Assembly (NCBI GenBank): GCA_021202075.1
Contig: JAJQDT010000110.1
Location: 8,011-72,010, forward strand
Length of the DNA stretch: 64,000 nucleotides
DNA from: Lachnospiraceae bacterium
GTDB taxonomy: Bacteria > Bacillota > Clostridia > Lachnospirales > Lachnospiraceae
Direction: 5' to 3'
Shown here: positions 55,070-64,000 of the stretch, piece by piece
How positions within the stretch are numbered: position 1 is the first letter of the stretch
Layout of the letters: every line of letters begins with the position of its first letter
Translations under genes and position numbers: made by a program
The notes under the pieces: model-generated
What the model saw: the letters and a program-made list of their open reading frames with translations, nothing else
Databases searched by the model: none
What the model was told of the DNA's origin: nothing

Positions 55070-55307
55070 CTTTCTATGCATAATTTTCCTGTGCACTGAT
55101 TTTTTGTGTATTATTTTTGCGCAGTTATTCGTTTAAACGTATTATGTGTAGTAAAACGTCCTTCGGGCAAATGAGAAGCACCGACAGTTCGCAAAGGAAT
55201 TGGTAACAACAGGACAGCTGGATGTGCAGAGAAACCGATTCATCAGGCAGCACTCCATCACGCCCGGACTTTTTTATTTGAAAACGATGACAGGAGGAGG
55301 CGCACAC

Positions 55308-56591
55308 ATGTCTGAAAAAAGGTTTACCTCTGTTACAGGCTCCGCTGCTACAGAGCCATCTGCTACAAAACCCTATATTGTAGAACCCGCTGTCGCAGAA
55401 CCTTCTCAGGAAATGTTTCAGACGGATTCCGGCTTCACGAGAGGCATTCATACCGAGCAGCAGCTCTGGGACGAAATCTTTAAAAAGGAACTCTATGAAA
55501 TGCCATTTTTGCTGTTGCCTCTGCTCTATGAGATTTATGGGATGGAATATCCGCGGGAGACACCGGTCACTCCGATTGCCACAGAGTTTTCAGTGGAAAG
55601 TCCGGATACAAAAGAAATAACCTCCATTCGATCCGATATGACCTTAAAAGTTGCCCTGTCTGATATTTTCCACTTTGAGTGTGAGATTTCGACAGATCCG
55701 GATATGAGTCTGCGTATGTATGACTACGATTCTCGAGTAGCATTAACTTACCCGGTGCGGCAGAAAAAGATACCGATTCTGCTAAAATATCCGCACTCGG
55801 CAATTCTGTATCTCAAGCCAGGAGTCAGAACGCCGGAGCCTCTTACCTGCAGACTGTATTTTCCACCCGGCAAGTTGGTTCATGCAGTACAGACGCAGAA
55901 TTCTCACACAAATGAAAATGCAAAAAAATCTGTGCAAAGATCAGAAGCTAAAAAAAATCAGCCGGATACGGCAGATGAAGTAAATACCGAGGCGCGACCG
56001 AGTGTGAAGGCATCGCTTGACGCGAAGAATCTGTCAGGCACGGAAGATTTGTCTGATAATAAAAGTCCTGGAACGGAGGGGCTGACGGACGAGATTTCAT
56101 ATGTAGACTATTTAATACCTGTAGTGAAAGTGCAGGCATATAGTTTACAGCAGATCCGAGAAAAGCACCTGCTGATTCTGATACCATTCACACCGATACG
56201 ATTTCGTCCCCTGTTAAAACGAATGAAAAAAGAACCCACTTTTGCAAAAAACGAATTGACAAATTTCTATCAGGAAATTATACTGACATTAGACGAGGCA
56301 GTGACAGATGGCTACATCAGCGAACAAAATCGCAAATGTATCCTTTCATTACTGCAAAAAGCCATGATCCGGGTGTTTAATAAAACCACGTTTTTATCGG
56401 AGGTGATACATATGACAGCACCTGTGCTGGAATTTGAGTGGGAGACAGTCGAAAGACTGGAAAAGGAAATTGCTGTACTGAAAGAAGAAAATGCGAAGAA
56501 GGATGCAATAATGGCAGAAAAAGATGCGGAAATCAGAGCTTTGCGTAAACGGCGCTGGGGAATCTTTTATGGCAGGAGAAAAGAAGGGTAA
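55308..56591 (+). CDS. Rpn/PD-(D/E)XK-like hypothetical protein with coiled-coil C-terminus
   Basis: This 427-residue protein starts at ATG 55308 after AGGAGGCGCA, a clear ribosome site. Earlier in-frame codons are not supported. Residues about 120-170 contain FHFECEISTDPDMSLRMYDY followed by DSRVAL, resembling the E-x-E/Q, R and Y-D-S pattern of Rpn-family nuclease-transposase proteins. A low-complexity Lys/Ser/Asp stretch fills about 200-265. From about residue 385 a charged heptad tail (LEKEIAVLKEENAKKDAIMA) is likely coiled coil. I am not sure that nuclease residues are complete. It may share ancestry with the Rpn-like fragment at 13522. Confidence 0.6.
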   Translation: MSEKRFTSVTGSAATEPSATKPYIVEPAVAEPSQEMFQTDSGFTRGIHTEQQLWDEIFKKELYEMPFLLLPLLYEIYGMEYPRETPVTPIATEFSVESPDTKEITSIRSDMTLKVALSDIFHFECEISTDPDMSLRMYDYDSRVALTYPVRQKKIPILLKYPHSAILYLKPGVRTPEPLTCRLYFPPGKLVHAVQTQNSHTNENAKKSVQRSEAKKNQPDTADEVNTEARPSVKASLDAKNLSGTEDLSDNKSPGTEGLTDEISYVDYLIPVVKVQAYSLQQIREKHLLILIPFTPIRFRPLLKRMKKEPTFAKNELTNFYQEIILTLDEAVTDGYISEQNRKCILSLLQKAMIRVFNKTTFLSEVIHMTAPVLEFEWETVERLEKEIAVLKEENAKKDAIMAEKDAEIRALRKRRWGIFYGRRKEG

Positions 56592-56791: not shown

Positions 56792-57223
56792 CTACACCAC
56801 AGCCTCCACCAGGACGCGCTCCCCCACCAGAAGCTGCTTCACGCCAGTCTGCTTCTTTTTATTGAAGTTAAAGCTCAACATATATCCCTTCTGCAGGTGG
56901 TAGTAGTCCATATACTCCAGCAGCTGGTTTTCTCCCCGCCGGTTGTACTCCTGACCATGATAAATTTTCATCTCCAGGACAAATTGCATTCCTTTATAGT
57001 CGATAATGACATCTGTCCGTTTCATGTTGCGTGTCCGGGATTCAATATAACAATTCCCGGTCCCATTTATGATAGGCTTCAGATAAATCAGAAAAATCCT
57101 TCTTCCGTTGTCCTCGATGAATTTATCGTCCGCATCCGCGTAAATATCTTCGAAATATTCACAGAACTTCTGCAGCACCAGCTCCATCTGAAGAAATAAA
57201 TAAATGGCAGAAAAAGATATCAC
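56792..57223 (-). pseudogene. 3' fragment of an AAA-PD-(D/E)XK gene
   Basis: The 131 residues from about 57187 align closely with the C-terminus of the intact protein at 49685-51265: ADADDKFIEDNGRRIFLIYL, KPIINGTGNCYIESRTRN, TDVIIDYKGMQFVLEMKIY, and RGENQLLEYMDYYHLQKGYM. The nuclease-like D...ExK residues are kept. The ATPase domain is entirely missing. A few unrelated residues precede it (MISFSAIYLFLQ). It is a truncated paralogue, possibly a relic of a second insertion. Confidence 0.85.
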
Positions 57224-57580: not shown

Positions 57581-58822
57581 TTATTTTCTCCCATACTCGC
57601 GAACGGTATCATAGAGCGCTGCCAGATTTTCACGTTTTACGACCTGGATGGAAGCGTTAGTCTCAAAGATAAACCCGCCACCGGGAGCGCCGATATCAAT
57701 CTGTCTTTTGGCCTCATCGATCACCTGCTGCTTTGTACCATATTCCAAAAGGTAGATTGGGAAATTTCCGGTGATGCAGTTTTTCGCGCCAATTGTCTTT
57801 TTGGCGTGCGCCAGGTCTACGGTCTCAAAGTGAATGATGCATTTGCCTTCCGGCAGACCGGTCATCTCATCCACTCTCCGCTCATACTTTCCCTCTGTAT
57901 AAAGGATCGGTGTGACGCCCATCTCAGTCAGAGCATTGATGACTTTCAGGAATGGCTTCCAGTACAGGGTCTGATACTGCGCGGGGCTCATGAAACCGTC
58001 CATGCCCTTGTGCATCCAGAACATGACACGTTTTACCGGCATCGGTGCGAAACGAAAATACTGCAGGTTCGCGATCTGGATGTCCGCAAGGAGATTGACC
58101 GCCTCCTCAACAAGCTCCGGGCATTCGATCAGGTCATCAAACATTTCCACTGTCCCGCGGAAATAATTGGAGAGAGTGTCAAAGGGAACCAGGCCTACCC
58201 CTGTCAGCATGGGCGGAAATCCCATACCGGCAAGCTGTCCCTGAAGTGCCTGCGTTGCCTTATCGGTTTCGGCTTCCAGCTTACCAATCTCGATCAGCTT
58301 CTGATAAGCGTCCAGCGCCTTCAGATTGTAAAGGTTGCCGACAGCGCCCATATACATGTAGTTCGTCGGCGCAGGGTTTAACAGAGTGCCGAGTCCGTCA
58401 AGATTCGGGAATACCCGCGGCAGGTATTTATGAAGGACAAACCCGGTGAAGTCCCGGAGAAATTCCAGATATTCTTCCTGTTGCATGAACGCGTACTCAT
58501 GTACCTGGTAAACGCTGTCGTCCGGACATTTTGTACCAGGGCGGCCCGGCCAGTCTATGTATTTGGTGCCGGCCAGCTCTTCCGCTTTCCCACAGAGGAG
58601 CTGCGCCAGCTGAACATCAGGCTGAAATTCCTGGTGAAACTGAATGATTGCATCAGAAGCAGCCTCATAGTTATATAGACTGTCCTTGTAAGTAGCTTTC
58701 CCGTCGCTTAAAACAAACGGGGTGGAGCCGTAATTGATCCAGATCGGGATCCGCTCCGGCTCTTCGTGGCGTGTCGCCTCCTCTGCGATACGAATTCTTT
58801 GTTCGAAAATACTCTCTGCCAT
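57581..58822 (-). CDS. UroD-type corrinoid-dependent methyltransferase
   Basis: This 413-residue protein belongs to the uroporphyrinogen-decarboxylase-like superfamily, which also includes MtaA-like methyltransferases that move methyl groups between corrinoid proteins and a substrate or coenzyme. Family stretches are GKAEELAGTKYIDWPG, the GMGFPPMLTGVGLVPFDTLSNYFRG segment and IIHFETVDLAHAKKTIGAKN, IDIGAPGGGFIFETN. The gene is last in a minus-strand cluster with a corrinoid protein and RACo activator, which favours a methyltransferase role over haem biosynthesis. The methyl donor or acceptor is not known. It is separated by 162 bp from the upstream hydrolase gene. Confidence 0.85.
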   Translation of the reverse strand: MAESIFEQRIRIAEEATRHEEPERIPIWINYGSTPFVLSDGKATYKDSLYNYEAASDAIIQFHQEFQPDVQLAQLLCGKAEELAGTKYIDWPGRPGTKCPDDSVYQVHEYAFMQQEEYLEFLRDFTGFVLHKYLPRVFPNLDGLGTLLNPAPTNYMYMGAVGNLYNLKALDAYQKLIEIGKLEAETDKATQALQGQLAGMGFPPMLTGVGLVPFDTLSNYFRGTVEMFDDLIECPELVEEAVNLLADIQIANLQYFRFAPMPVKRVMFWMHKGMDGFMSPAQYQTLYWKPFLKVINALTEMGVTPILYTEGKYERRVDEMTGLPEGKCIIHFETVDLAHAKKTIGAKNCITGNFPIYLLEYGTKQQVIDEAKRQIDIGAPGGGFIFETNASIQVVKRENLAALYDTVREYGRK

Positions 58823-58984
58823 TGGTTACCTCCTGTTTTGATGTTTGTTCATATGAAAAAAATGAGTTGCTTTTACATCCGTTTCCTCGTATGGATCACT
58901 GACTCTGCGCCGCCCCTGATCCACTCCTGCAAGTTTTGCCAACAGGTTTTTATAGAATCTCTTTCATCCGCAGTGACGGTTGAT

Positions 58985-59977
58985 TTATTCCACCGGCTCC
59001 AGCCCGTTCTCCTCACACCATTCCAGCGCAAGCTCCCGGTATGTCTGATCCCTGTACTCGTACCATTCATCTTCAATCCCCAGGCGCGCCAGGGTATCCT
59101 TGAAGCGGCGGAACGCTCCCCGGCCCTGAATGGCTCTGGCGAGCTGGTTCTGCATTCTGGCATTCGAAAGCTGGTCAATGAAGCGTTCCATGATCGAATA
59201 TTCATTGATATCAAACTGCGTCGGAAGAGGAATATATCTTCCTTCTTCGTTATACTCAATCTCGTCCTCGAGCTCCTCATCCTCGTCAAACTCACTGAGC
59301 ATCACGGACTCGCCGGTCTTTGTGTCCAGATAATAAGTAATCGCATTATCGGCAAATTCAATCGCCTCCAGGATGACATCCAGCTTCACCTTCCCGGCTG
59401 TCTGCCTGGACTGCTCTGGCTCCCTGGCCGGTTCGGACAGGTACAGGTCTACCCTGTGCATGATGCCGTACAGGGTCTCAATATCCTGCTTCCAGTCGTC
59501 GGTCTCCAGCGAGTGGTTCGCCTGCTCGATCACAAACAGCGTCAGATCCCGTTTCCCGCACTCCATCCGAATCAGCTCAGTGCCAACCCAGCTGTCCGCG
59601 GTCCCGTGAAACACAAGCCCCGGCTGATCCATGAAGCGAAACGACTCCTTCACCGGCGTGAAGTAGACATTCCTGGTCGTCAGCTCATGCTTTCTGGCAT
59701 AGGCAGACGCAATCGCGGTTCCGATGCTCTTGGAAATGAACAAAATTTCCTCGTACTGTGAAAAGTCCACATCCTTCAAAAGCTCCTCACACTGATCCAG
59801 CGCGGAGAAAAAGCAGGCGCTCATTTTATCTTTGTCTCCCTTGACTCCGGCCGGGAAATTTCCATACGGCACATTTTTTATCTCATAGCCATGGGCAGCA
59901 GCCACCCGTTTGCTGTGGTAGAGCAGCGGCTTATCCACATGGTAACCAATTCCCGGAAATACGACTGCGAGTTTCAT
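58985..59977 (-). CDS. Alpha/beta-hydrolase fused to a UPF0158 domain
   Basis: This 330-residue protein has two parts. Residues 1-180 form an alpha/beta-hydrolase-like domain with Ser in LFISKSIGTAIASA, Asp in VFHGTADSWVG and His in IEQANHSLET, a plausible triad. Residues about 195-330 form a UPF0158-type domain (DNAITYYLDTKTGESVMLSE, RYIPLPTQFDINEYSIMERF, LARAIQGRGAFRRFKDTL, WCEENGLEP). UPF0158 proteins normally stand alone and have no proven role. The gene lies between the PucR regulator and the methyltransferase in the corrinoid cluster. Function is not known; a fused hydrolase might act on a methyl ester substrate, which is inference only. Confidence 0.8.
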   Translation of the reverse strand: MKLAVVFPGIGYHVDKPLLYHSKRVAAAHGYEIKNVPYGNFPAGVKGDKDKMSACFFSALDQCEELLKDVDFSQYEEILFISKSIGTAIASAYARKHELTTRNVYFTPVKESFRFMDQPGLVFHGTADSWVGTELIRMECGKRDLTLFVIEQANHSLETDDWKQDIETLYGIMHRVDLYLSEPAREPEQSRQTAGKVKLDVILEAIEFADNAITYYLDTKTGESVMLSEFDEDEELEDEIEYNEEGRYIPLPTQFDINEYSIMERFIDQLSNARMQNQLARAIQGRGAFRRFKDTLARLGIEDEWYEYRDQTYRELALEWCEENGLEPVE

Positions 59978-60026
59978 CTGATTCGTTCCTCCTCAATTTT
60001 TCTGTGCAAAATCACTCAGAGCAGAC

Positions 60027-60220
60027 TGAAAATATCCCTTAGTTTGCTTAGCGCTGTCGGTTTTTTTTGCTTTCTGTTCAAAGCCCCCAGGACTGGTTAA
60101 AAGCAACCCGGAATGCTCACCGGCTTTGCTCAGCGCTTTGAGTTTCTTCTCTTAAAACCGCTCAAAACGGGCGGAGAATTTCACTGGCTTTGCCCGGCGC
60201 CATGATTTTTCTCCTCATCC
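60027..60220. repeat. Three decaying copies of the 3' end of the PucR gene
   Basis: The region 60177-60217, which covers the last codons of the regulator, resembles 60112-60152 (offset 65 bp) and, more weakly, 60027-60067 (offset 85 bp). All contain TTTGCyyrGCGC-like centres followed by T-rich tails. The two downstream copies lie past the stop. This is either tandem duplication of the gene end or repeated leader structures. Confidence 0.45.
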
Positions 60221-61878
60221 TGTTCCAACAGCCGATAAGATAGCTCCAGATAAAAGACCTCCTCCGGATTTTCCAGATCGGAATGAAGAATTTCTTTAAT
60301 CCGCTCCATTCGATAGAGGAAGGTGCTCCTGTGGATGTAGAGCTCTTTTGCCGCCTGTGTCGCATTCATCTGCCGGTCGATCCAGGTCTTCAGCGTCGCC
60401 ATATATTCCGTGTGATTCTCCCGGTCATGCTCCCTGAGCTTTAAAAGACCCTCGTGACAGATCATATCGGCAGGCAGTTTTCTTGTCGATTGCTCTATGA
60501 TATACGTCAACGCCACCTGATTAAAATGATGGATCCACAGATAAGGCCGTTTCCGGCTGCCGACATCCAGTGCGGTCTGCGCCTGTACATACTGACGGCG
60601 CAGATTCATGTGCCCCTTCATGGTTCTGCTGTAGCCCGCTTTCAGATAACTGTCCCGGATAAAATAGACCAGTTTCGCGGCCGCCTCTTCTTCATCCATC
60701 CCGAGGCGGGAAAGATTAAAAAAGCTGACCACCTCATCCTGATAGAGAAAGCTGACGGAATCGCGAAGCTGCTTTTGGACATAACAGCAAATCGCACGCG
60801 TGGAGAGCTGTTTCTGATTCAGATAAGTAATCTGCAGAACCAGGCACAGGTATTCATCCTGACCGCCCCATCCCACAGCCGAAAGGCTGCGGCTGATCTG
60901 AACATAATCCGCCGTCCGGTCCGAAAGGACTCTCTGGAAAATCGCCTCTAAATCCCCCTTCATGGGCGCGGGAGCCTCCCGAGCGAGCTGGTACTCCAGA
61001 TGCTTTGCCAGGGTCTCCAGAATACAGATGCAGCTCTCTGTGACCGGAGTATCATATTCGGTCAATACCAGGCGGTAAGTCGGCTGTTGATCCACAAACA
61101 GAGTCCGAAGCATGGAACGGCGGCCGCTGATGTAATCCGGAAACAGTACGGTTCGCCGCTCCTGCGTAAGCTTCTGGTATCCTTCGTCCTGCAGCAGTGC
61201 ATTCATGTATTCCACATTCAGCCCATCTCTGGTAAACAGTTTTTCCCGTTCCGGAAGCTTTTCCATCCCTGCCTCGGCAGTCAGCGAAAAATCCGTCCCC
61301 ATAACCATCAGGGGATTCCCCAGAAATCCGGCGCTCAGCTCCAGGGTCTTCCCAATCCCGGCATTCTCCGCCAGCAATCCAACCACCTTTTGCTCCCACT
61401 CTTCACAGACATCAAACATCTCCTGCACATAATTCAGGACCTCTGCCGCGCCGCCATCCGCCTCCACGCACACATAAGCGCCTCCGCTTTCCATTTTGGG
61501 CTTCCCGCATCTCCCCTTCTCCAGGCAAAATACCCGGAACACCGGATCCTGCACATCCGCAGCAGACCATTTCGTCGCATCCTCTTCTGATAAAACCGGT
61601 ATCACACATACATGTCCTCGCCGGTCAGCCATGCTCCCTCTGTCTTGCCGCTTCTTATCCTTCCAGGCATTGGTGTTCCCTTCTTCGATTTGCCGCTTCT
61701 CATCCTTCCAGGCATCGGTGTTCCCTTCGCTTTGCTGTTTCTCACCCCTTCGGGAGCTGCGTACTTCGGACCAGAAAAACGGGCGCAGATAGCCATCGCG
61801 GCCGGACAGCCCCGCAGCCTTCACAATTGTAAACTCTTTTGCCAGCTGTTCATACAGCCATGCCGATGACAATTTCAC
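60181..61878 (-). CDS. PucR/CdaR-family transcription regulator
   Basis: This 565-residue regulator is proposed to start at GTG 61876-61878, which has GGAGG exactly 7 bases before it; the earlier GTG 61923 overlaps the corrinoid gene by 4 bp and is a translation-coupled alternative. The middle part resembles PucR/CdaR sensor domains. The C-terminal HTH_30 domain reads TEYMATLKTWIDRQMNATQA followed by AKELYIHRSTFLYRMERIKEIL. Near residue 60 to 100 a charged insert carries two 45-bp repeats at 61646-61735 (EGNTDAWKDEKRQ-type units). It likely controls the surrounding corrinoid cluster in response to a methylated substrate. The ligand is unknown. Confidence 0.85.
   Translation of the reverse strand: MKLSSAWLYEQLAKEFTIVKAAGLSGRDGYLRPFFWSEVRSSRRGEKQQSEGNTDAWKDEKRQIEEGNTNAWKDKKRQDRGSMADRRGHVCVIPVLSEEDATKWSAADVQDPVFRVFCLEKGRCGKPKMESGGAYVCVEADGGAAEVLNYVQEMFDVCEEWEQKVVGLLAENAGIGKTLELSAGFLGNPLMVMGTDFSLTAEAGMEKLPEREKLFTRDGLNVEYMNALLQDEGYQKLTQERRTVLFPDYISGRRSMLRTLFVDQQPTYRLVLTEYDTPVTESCICILETLAKHLEYQLAREAPAPMKGDLEAIFQRVLSDRTADYVQISRSLSAVGWGGQDEYLCLVLQITYLNQKQLSTRAICCYVQKQLRDSVSFLYQDEVVSFFNLSRLGMDEEEAAAKLVYFIRDSYLKAGYSRTMKGHMNLRRQYVQAQTALDVGSRKRPYLWIHHFNQVALTYIIEQSTRKLPADMICHEGLLKLREHDRENHTEYMATLKTWIDRQMNATQAAKELYIHRSTFLYRMERIKEILHSDLENPEEVFYLELSYRLLEQDEEKNHGAGQSQ
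61646..61735 (-). repeat. Two 45-bp tandem repeats in the PucR gene
   Basis: Copies at 61646-61690 and 61691-61735 share 35 bp that are nearly identical and differ in the last 10. They encode 15-residue charged units. The multiple of 3 keeps the frame. Confidence 0.85.
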
Positions 61879-61919
61879 CCGCATTCCTCCACAGACGAGG
61901 CTCCGATTTGCTATCCCCG

Positions 61920-62555
61920 TCACACAATAAATGTTTTCGCAACCTCTGCGGCTTCCACGCAGTTCTCTGTATAGGCATCCGCCCCCATGTCCCGGGCAAG
62001 CTGTCTTGTCACCGCGCCGCCGCCCACCATAATCTTATATTTTTTATCCGGATCATTGCGCCGCAATGTTTTTACTACCTGCTCCATCTCCGGGAGAGCT
62101 GTGCTCAAAAGAGAGGAAATACAAACAATCTGGACGTCCGGATTTTCATGAACCGCCTTCAGAAATTGTTTCTCTGAAATATCCACACCCAGATCAATCA
62201 CCTTAAATCCTGCGCTTCGAAACATAAGCGCGACCAGGTTTTTCCCGACATCATGAAGGTCGCCCTCCACGGTTCCCAGGATGATGGTTCCGATGCTTCT
62301 GGCTTCCAGTCCCGGTTCCTGTTCTTCAATCAGTTCAAATCCCACGCGGACGCAGCGGGCCGCCGCGAGAATGCGGGGAATGTCTGCTTCCTGGGCCTTA
62401 AATCGCTCCCCCATCACCTGCATCGCGGGCATCATTGCTTCCTCCACAATCTGCATCGCGTCAATTTGCTGATTCAGCGCTTCCTCCACCAGCCTCCTCG
62501 CCTCTCCGGGATGGCCTTCTTCTATGGAACGCTGCAGCTCCTCCAATATCGTCAT
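61920..62555 (-). CDS. Corrinoid (B12-binding) methyl carrier protein
   Basis: This 211-residue protein carries the methyl group on a bound cobamide. The N-terminal helical domain (IDAMQIVEEAMMPAMQVMGE) precedes the Rossmann-like B12 domain with the lower-ligand motif GDLHDVGKN, His near residue 101, and later SSLLSTALPEM and VGGGAVT. Length and order match MtbC/MtmC/VdmA-type proteins of corrinoid demethylases. It should take methyl from the donor through a first methyltransferase and deliver it to a second one. It is followed without gap by the PucR gene. A T-rich region with possible promoter precedes it (62556-62761). Confidence 0.93.
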   Translation of the reverse strand: MTILEELQRSIEEGHPGEARRLVEEALNQQIDAMQIVEEAMMPAMQVMGERFKAQEADIPRILAAARCVRVGFELIEEQEPGLEARSIGTIILGTVEGDLHDVGKNLVALMFRSAGFKVIDLGVDISEKQFLKAVHENPDVQIVCISSLLSTALPEMEQVVKTLRRNDPDKKYKIMVGGGAVTRQLARDMGADAYTENCVEAAEVAKTFIV

Positions 62556-62761
62556 GAAAATTCCCCCCAGGCTTCTGTCAGGAAAATCAGTATGCCATCT
62601 GCTCCGCCGGAGACGCAGATCATAAATATCTGACGCACCCGAAGCCCTGACTCAAGTAAGTCTAAATTTCCTGTCAAAAATAAGAAATTATTCTTATGTT
62701 CCTGATCCAGATAAACCCGAACCAAAATTTGCAAAATACACAAAAAGTGTTTTTTAAGTGC

Positions 62762-63301
62762 CTACAATAACAGATAGCAGCTCGTATACGCTATCGAACA
62801 CGAGCCGTAATAATACTTCAGGTGATTCGACTGACAGACCTGTGTGACCAGCAGCCCATAGGCTTCCATAGAGGAAAAAGCCTGCCCGGGAAACCGACAG
62901 GGCGCATCCGGGTACGTACATACTTTACACTTCGTACAGCACCCGCTTCCAATCGCCAGCATATTCGGATAGTGCGGACGCAAAATTTTTTCGAATGCAT
63001 AAAAGTATTCCTTATGCCGCTGTTCTGTCTCCATCATCGCCTCGCCGTCCAGCTCATCCTCCAGCTCGCCCACCGTCTGAACGATAATCCCTTCCCGGTA
63101 CTGCCCGATTTTCTCCCGGCACTCCTCAAGAGTCCCGCAGCCGGGCGGACAGCTCCAGCATCTCCCATACATATGACAGGTGTTGGCCTCACACATCTGA
63201 CGAACCTCCTCCCGAAGCTCCAGCGTCCCGCAATCCAGCGGCTCCACATAAGAAAATCCCTGCTCTTTCCCCAGCTTCTCAAGCTGCACGATATCTATCA
63301 A
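62762..63301 (-). CDS. DUF2284 Cys-rich metal-binding protein
   Basis: This 179-residue protein starts at TTG 63299-63301 after GGGGGG. It has Cys-rich motifs typical of DUF2284: CHMYGRCWSCPPGCG in the N-terminal half and CCTKCKVCTYPDAPC in the C-terminal half, with about ten conserved Cys. These probably bind iron-sulfur clusters. Genes of this family are often next to corrinoid methyltransferase genes, and may serve in reactivation or electron supply. The exact role is unknown. It lies between the RACo gene and the corrinoid protein gene. Confidence 0.88.
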   Translation of the reverse strand: MIDIVQLEKLGKEQGFSYVEPLDCGTLELREEVRQMCEANTCHMYGRCWSCPPGCGTLEECREKIGQYREGIIVQTVGELEDELDGEAMMETEQRHKEYFYAFEKILRPHYPNMLAIGSGCCTKCKVCTYPDAPCRFPGQAFSSMEAYGLLVTQVCQSNHLKYYYGSCSIAYTSCYLLL

Positions 63302-63522
63302 ACCGATTCCCCCCTGTCCACTGACACATCAGCTCCTGCCTTCGATATCTCGGTTCCGGAATTCATCTTGCCCTTTCCGTAGTTCCGATGTTCCAGAGTT
63401 CTCTGCCCGCTTCCAAAGCATCCGGAATCCCGCTATGCCAGGCCATCCGTGCATACTCTCTGTCCCAATTATTGCCTGCCCACTGCCATATATCTCCCAC
63501 TCTTTGATTTCTTCAATCCCCG

Positions 63523-64000
63523 TCAGCCGGCAGCTTCAAACCCGAGCTCATCCACAAAGCAATCCTGAAATTCCGGAAGCGCTGCCAGTTCGATCATTTC
63601 CGTCTTCCGGGCCAGCACACCCGCATTATTCCATTCCTCCTGATTCAGCAGGGCAAGCTTAGCGCCTTCCCCGGCCGCGTTCCCCACTGCCTGTACCCGT
63701 CCGGCAAGTGTTCGAGGAAACATCCCAATCGTACCCGCGCTGGCGGCATCCATGTAGTTTCCAAACGCCCCTGCAATATAAACGCAGGTAATATCCTCTT
63801 CCTTCACTGCCAGAGTCCTCATCAGAAGCTGTATGCCTGCGGCAATCGCAGCTTTCGCCAGCTGCACCTCCCGCACATCCTTCTGGGTCAGATACACGCC
63901 TTTTCCATTTCCGGATTCCTCCGGAGGAACCAATACAAATGTCTGCGCGTCTTCCTGTCCGCTCTCCAGCCTGCCGCTTTCATCGATTTTCCCCGCACGA
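63523..64000 (-). CDS. C-terminal part of RACo-type corrinoid activation protein
   Basis: The frame is open to the window edge on the minus strand, so the N-terminal part lies outside. The visible 158 codons contain TFVLVPPEESGNGKGVYLTQ, KDVREVQLAKAAIAAGIQLL, YIAGAFGNYMDAASAGTIGM and VGNAAGEGAKLALL, the ASKHA-type C-terminal domain (DUF4445) of RACo/RamA-type proteins. These use ATP to restore inactive Co(II) corrinoid proteins to Co(I). The expected iron-sulfur N-terminus must be looked for beyond the window. It is first in transcription order of the visible cluster. Confidence 0.9.
   Translation of the reverse strand, partial: RAGKIDESGRLESGQEDAQTFVLVPPEESGNGKGVYLTQKDVREVQLAKAAIAAGIQLLMRTLAVKEEDITCVYIAGAFGNYMDAASAGTIGMFPRTLAGRVQAVGNAAGEGAKLALLNQEEWNNAGVLARKTEMIELAALPEFQDCFVDELGFEAAG

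Follow-up and report, generated by a model that had tools for sequence, protein, structure and literature searches.

A probable corrinoid methyl-transfer operon in a Lachnospiraceae bacterium, with an aryl methyl ether of plant origin as the likeliest donor

Which methylated compounds would be used by the corrinoid-linked genes at the end of a 64-kb stretch of a Lachnospiraceae genome, and do these genes form a system of a new kind? The stretch (the window: all 64,000 nucleotides analysed, contig JAJQDT010000110.1 of assembly GCA_021202075.1, C47:8011-72010 in our numbering) comes from a 5.55 Mb draft genome with an estimated completeness of 95%. A preliminary description of the window had placed six genes of a corrinoid demethylation-type cluster in one direction between 57581 and 64000, leaving the substrate unspecified, and our ORF calls find all six on the minus strand at the same positions, with Pfam scores above the curated cut-offs. 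We observe that the operon is cut by the window end, inside the gene of the RACo-type corrinoid activase, and that the contig runs on. In transcription order the genes are UroD1, MTII, CP1, RACo, DUF2284, CP2, PucR, a hydrolase-UPF0158 fusion and UroD2, where UroD1 is the first methyltransferase (MTI), MTII the methyl-tetrahydrofolate:corrinoid methyltransferase, and CP1 and CP2 are corrinoid proteins. With a probability of about 0.6, we read the operon as a four-component corrinoid methyl-transfer system of the O-demethylase type, with a plant-made aryl methyl ether as the likeliest donor, and by analogy the gene set would most likely strip methyl groups from plant-derived compounds with vitamin B12. 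It is open which gut bacteria, by which enzymes, demethylate compounds of diet and drugs: passages of a review call the enzymatic basis of gut demethylation unresolved (PMC13418474), and a 2026 study of etoposide O-demethylation reports that disruption of three candidate enzymes of Eubacterium limosum had no effect (PMC12915777). As a candidate, UroD1 is widely distributed and strongly conserved, and its partner genes are defined.

The gene content beyond position 64000, where the preliminary description had suspected that a first methyltransferase might lie, supplies the missing parts. UroD1 is found at window-equivalent 67513-68547 (minus strand, as are all genes of the operon; L004:10524-11558, where L004 is the 19 kb flank) and matches the UroD superfamily (PF01208, 43.2 bits, cut-off 23.9). 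It is followed by MTII at 66474-67277 (L004:9485-10288; NF005719, 325.4 bits, curated cut-off 259) and by CP1 at 65741-66376 (L004:8752-9387), which scores just below the cut-off of its methyltransferase corrinoid protein model (213.4 bits, cut-off 215.3). The RACo gene, of which 63523..64000 lies in the window (RACo_C_ter 135.1 bits for that C-terminal part), extends to window-equivalent 65565 (L004:6534-8576). Its full product of 680 amino acids (aa) carries [2Fe-2S], middle and C-terminal domains and the cysteine motif (P0004; Fer2 34.7 bits, RACo_C_ter 263.2 bits), and is a predicted ATP-dependent activase. Downstream are DUF2284 (62762..63301; PF10050, 158.4 bits), a cysteine-rich predicted metal-binding protein with 15 cysteines, and CP2 (61920..62555; B12-binding PF02310, 80.3 bits, and PF02607), the second corrinoid carrier protein. 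Both CP1 and CP2 contain DxHxxG, SxL and GG, which together we take to be the corrinoid motif. The remaining genes encode a PucR-family protein (60181..61923; PF13556 (HTH_30), 68 bits, and PF17853, 27.6 bits), which is the probable regulator of the cluster, the hydrolase-UPF0158 fusion (58985..59977; PF03682, 54 bits) and UroD2 (57581..58822; PF01208, 63.9 bits), a second UroD-superfamily protein. The genes had also been called closely spaced, which holds for CP2 and PucR, overlapping by 4 bases, and not for the remaining gaps of 97-235 bases (235, 97, 175, 221, 206, -4, 203 and 162 bases in transcription order).

From the families of these proteins a sequence of reaction steps can be proposed. 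RACo, with ATP and electrons, would reduce the corrinoid of CP1, and probably also that of CP2, to Co(I). The methylated donor would then be bound by UroD1, and in the window's genome also by UroD2 and by a third UroD protein encoded on contig C13, after which Co(I) would take the methyl group to give methyl-Co(III)-CP, and MTII would pass the methyl group from the corrinoid protein to tetrahydrofolate (H4folate). Since the genome carries an ACS gene, the resulting methyl-H4folate could enter the Wood-Ljungdahl pathway via ACS. PucR would turn the cluster on in response to the donor or a product, and DUF2284 may pass electrons to RACo or help to load it, a guess from its position and its 15 cysteines; the donor class, the regulation and the DUF2284-RACo partnership are proposed by analogy or position alone. 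DUF2284 is found directly after RACo in 24 of 30 cases, and CP1 directly after MTII in 25 of 28. These counts come from 117 loci (116 after one more duplicate was dropped, with the counts unchanged) that were chosen for UroD or CP genes and not for the counted pairs, and relatedness among many of the species keeps the counts from being independent. Against solved structures DUF2284 gave only chance-level matches (best E 0.44), and the passages found on DUF2284 together with methyltransferases concern a genome-enriched family list and selenoproteins joining arsenite methyltransferase to DUF2284, neither dealing with corrinoid systems (PMC13188914, PMC7883539).

The preliminary description had presented the cluster as the best candidate for an undescribed system; with the flank read, this is too strong, since all four components of known bacterial corrinoid demethylases, as listed in passages of PMC13222342 and PMC12915777, are present. 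The cluster shares a UroD-superfamily MTI, a corrinoid protein, MTII, an activase and an ACS-bearing host with the bacterial corrinoid O-demethylases described in parts of PMC13222342 and PMC10418091, whose MTIs are OdmB, VdmB and MtvB, but unlike them it has two corrinoid proteins, DUF2284 and PucR; the comparison is one of components. UroD1 may yet be an ortholog of a characterised O-demethylase. Our literature searches found no description of the gene set around the core or of its link to PucR; the kind of system itself is known.

When the genome of the window was searched, three RACo-type genes were found, namely that of the operon, one on contig C77, some 6 kb away from the ACS gene, and a third at G000:C114:102480-103445. 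The same searches gave one MTII match (E <= 1e-40), three UroD matches (UroD1, UroD2 and the one on C13) and two matches to CP2 (E <= 1e-20), namely CP2 itself and CP1. As the one MTII and both corrinoid proteins found lie in the operon, it appears to be a shared hub for several donor-specific UroD enzymes, and the single MTII probably serves all three UroD enzymes of this genome.

Next, we compared the operon across the genus, where UroD1 and MTII occur together. MTII was found in 13 of 16 genomes with a UroD1-type gene (best match of at least 53% identity) against 2 of 20 without, with 18 of the 36 having neither (p = 2e-5), and the three genomes with UroD1 and no MTII are drafts of 82, 71 and 65% completeness. 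Among the 23 genomes of at least 90% completeness, 11 have both, none UroD1 only, 2 MTII only and 10 neither (p = 6.7e-5); the genomes share ancestry, and both p-values are a guide only. In eleven genomes of the genus UroD1 shows 92-98% identity, a conservation as tight as that of ClpB, against about 60-84% identity for most other proteins of the operon. From the eleven other loci with UroD1 of at least 92% identity, seven were fetched (L053-L059), and in all seven UroD1, DUF2284 and CP2 occur in this order. The full run from UroD1 through MTII, CP1, RACo, DUF2284 and CP2 to PucR is present in one, MTII and CP1 are missing from one and RACo from two, while three either lack PucR or lie on a contig that stops short. 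In genome G008 the UroD1 operon lacks MTII and CP1, and its only MTII match lies with CP1 beside two other UroD genes (L165, G008:C56). This MTII-CP1 pair is 97% and 95% identical to that of the window's genome (L004:8752-10288), against only 74-78% for the pairs in six of the fetched UroD1 operons (L053, L054, L056-L059), and an exchange of the MTII-CP1 pair between UroD loci is probable from these sequences.

Upon examining UroD1 more widely, we found UroD1-type genes spread over Clostridia and some Coriobacteriia, rumen and gut samples included, with several hosts from rumen, rectum or duodenum samples (all by sample titles), and a UroD1 of 70% identity in Sporobacter termitidis DSM 10068; Hominifimenecus microfluidus carries UroD1 as well. 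The S. termitidis gene, in a species reported to live only on methoxylated aromatics (PMC4585845), and the rumen and gut hosts favour an aryl methyl ether as the donor class. Some matches were listed with in-frame stops; nine such loci were fetched (L159, L165-L172), and as all nine hold an intact UroD ORF, the listed stops were taken as gene ends. A fold search with a UroD1 relative of 96% identity returned the MtaA/UroD fold; CdmB, the MTI of a haloalkane system, was not among the matches, which is uninformative because the library ends in April 2026. Across 80 loci, recurrent UroD1 neighbours besides the core genes are few, and several of them come from close relatives. An uncharacterised glycyl radical enzyme gene lies near UroD1 in 4 of the 80 (L071, L072, L136 and L142). 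This enzyme is PFL-like with a Gly_radical domain and has 816 aa in L072, and 4 of its 5 copies lie within 3 kb of UroD1; L071 and L072 look like close relatives.

Several results weigh against the operon as we read it or against an aryl methyl ether as its donor. UroD1 matched no solved structure at E 0.01, and its profile gave chance-level matches only (E 0.07 and above). The neighbours of lone UroD1 genes hold no consistent clue to a substrate. Although a small set of methoxylated aromatics is reported to be all that S. termitidis grows on (PMC4585845), its 4.2 Mb genome (G144) gave 32 UroD-family matches, 30 of them over the cut-off and four on contig C33 at 134-144 kb, and with so many other UroD proteins its diet does not assign UroD1. 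The one structural match of UroD2 is to a haloalkane enzyme that is inactive on methoxylated aromatics. The ACS beta subunit, present in the window's genome, in 26 of 36 genus genomes and in 22 of the 23 that are at least 90% complete, is equally common in genomes without UroD1, so that ACS does not link to UroD1; the genus looks acetogenic with or without it, and the host probably makes acetate. Finally, the gap separating CP1 from RACo holds a candidate terminator, a hairpin followed by a T-run, which suggests two transcription units rather than one. In our scans this hairpin alone is worth notice, both promoters (10 against 9.3 expected) and terminators (13 against 10.1) being near chance in number, and the 19 kb flank L004 contains no riboswitch or other Rfam RNA at the gathering score.

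Among the other donors that we weighed, a non-aromatic O-, S- or N-methyl compound, such as an O-methylated sugar, a cyclitol or a methyl thioether, survives best as the true substrate of UroD1, and we consider it unlikely. Methyltransferases of the UroD superfamily use very different donors according to a passage of PMC10418091, one common donor is plausible from the strong conservation of UroD1, and its surroundings offer some hints: MFS-like transporter genes beside two UroD1-type genes (Pfam was run for one, L063), the glycyl radical enzyme gene near four loci and, in L060, a gene resembling by eye a family 4 glycosidase, two genes from UroD1. Yet no recurrent sugar or sulfur gene was recognised beside UroD1 in the 80 loci, where most families are unannotated, and UroD1 is present in a species reported, in the passage cited above, to live only on methoxylated aromatics (PMC4585845).

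We find it improbable that UroD2, perhaps with the whole cluster, demethylates haloalkanes (chloromethane) in the manner of Cdm of Acetobacterium dehalogenans. CdmB (9rui) is the sole relative of UroD2 among solved structures (phmmer E 1.5e-18, family profile E 5.5e-48), MTII and corrinoid proteins are encoded in the same cluster, as they are with the MTI in CdmBCA, and according to PMC13222342 cdmB occurs in Blautia and other genera of the gut, with haloalkane conversion there suggested by its authors. The UroD2-CdmB match is distant, however, and proven O-demethylases are among the close relatives of CdmB according to the same source. Moreover, the core enzyme UroD1 does not match CdmB by sequence, and UroD2 is too rare to set the function of the core: a search of 143 other genomes gave relatives at E <= 1e-30 in 7 of them (8 of 144 with its own). 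A further difference from CdmBCA is that the activase gene lies within the cluster here.

A type 1 mlp-like cluster, recycling methyl-sulfur or methyl-selenium without folate, is highly improbable and was rejected by the definition of such clusters, which, according to PMC10418091, likewise hold UroD-family proteins, a corrinoid protein and an activase but bar a tetrahydrofolate methyltransferase within 20 kb, while here MTII lies two genes from RACo and both UroD proteins score far below the MtaA/CmuA model (TIGR01463, cut-off 235.4; UroD1 20.3 and UroD2 21.7 bits). The soluble methylcobamide:CoM methyltransferases of the MtaA type also differ, with 14% identity and with methyl transfer here predicted to folate by gene content. 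A system of the MttB type (methylamine, betaine) was rejected as well, since the window's genome, a draft of about 95% completeness, has no PF06253 match.

Returning to the four-component system with an aryl methyl ether as donor, we examined how it might be regulated. The preliminary description could not match the combination with the fused hydrolase and PucR to the vanillate, betaine or methylamine systems; PucR is not unusual here, since of 120 PucR-type genes scoring above the family cut-off 30 have a UroD-family gene within 4 kb, where at most 2.9 would be expected, a frequency about ten times that of chance. The count covers 14 genomes, namely that of the window plus 13 selected for carrying UroD genes, and the expectation is calculated from the fraction of the genome covered. 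Three of the 14 (G008, G010 and G014) have no PucR gene within 4 kb of UroD, and in G008 and G014 a PucR gene closes the UroD1 operon on the side away from UroD1, outside this limit. These results suggest that PucR is a common regulator family of UroD-type demethylases. In a literature search for PucR with corrinoid and methyltransferase, the passage returned from PMC9503626 concerns another matter. The PucR link offers a testable answer on regulation, which the Cdm authors call largely unexplored in a passage of PMC13222342.

CP2 may act as a further carrier, or it may serve PucR as a sensor. CP1 and CP2 form separate clades with support of 100/99, in a tree with one long row (L173) among those labelled CP1, and CP2 at 55% identity or more is found only in the window's genus (60 genomes) and at named Lachnospiraceae loci. 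In the 117 loci, DUF2284 comes before CP2 in 15 of 16 cases, and PucR comes after it in 11 of 16. A sensor pair, in which CP2 would report the methylation or redox state of the corrinoid, the operon would be switched by methyl flux and not by free substrate, and DUF2284 would be the electron-delivering partner of RACo, is a doubtful proposal. It is weakened in its sensor part by loci where CP2 is kept without PucR directly after it (L054, L056 and L164); the two are separated by a short ORF in L159, and L057 ends there. If true, such a pair would represent a novel form of gene regulation coupled to a corrinoid protein, and PucR proteins would be widespread as regulators of UroD-type demethylases.

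The fused hydrolase had been counted as part of the cluster, and we rejected it as a component of the system. The hydrolase half, alpha/beta-hydrolase-like, has a Pfam match that stays under the cut-off (Abhydrolase_11, 15.6 bits against 27) and is a stand-alone gene in 13 other genus genomes (frames of 185-258 aa), with three more matches in frames of 331-378 aa. The fusion gave only chance-level matches to solved structures (best E 0.09). Neither it nor UroD2 is present in the five same-genus operons with a visible downstream side, L057 and L059 ending too soon, and none of the seven fetched genomes is among the eight carrying a UroD2 relative. As the hydrolase half is separate elsewhere and the fusion is absent from the related operons, we read the fusion as a likely passenger.

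Judged from its family, UroD2 is a probable second enzyme for methyl donors; a structure prediction from two sequences was poor (pLDDT 56.5). A PucR gene adjoins the UroD2 relative in the opposite direction at four loci of 41-45% identity with a visible upstream side (L045, L046, L049 and L050), and L047 and L048 end there. Three loci carry relatives at about 30-36% identity, two of them in L051 without an adjacent PucR gene; L052 ends there. By Pfam, the neighbours of UroD2 relatives include AAA-ATPases, a sigma factor, a MerR regulator, an acetyltransferase-like protein and one without a match, and no aromatic or methyl gene is among those run. Beyond the operon, a 463-aa ORF at 55200-56588 on the plus strand has no Pfam match at E 0.001, and a short ORF after UroD2, at 56795-57223, has a weak PD-(D/E)XK nuclease match. 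Together with the AAA-ATPase genes near the UroD2 relatives in L046 and L049, this nuclease-like ORF hints at a variable region.

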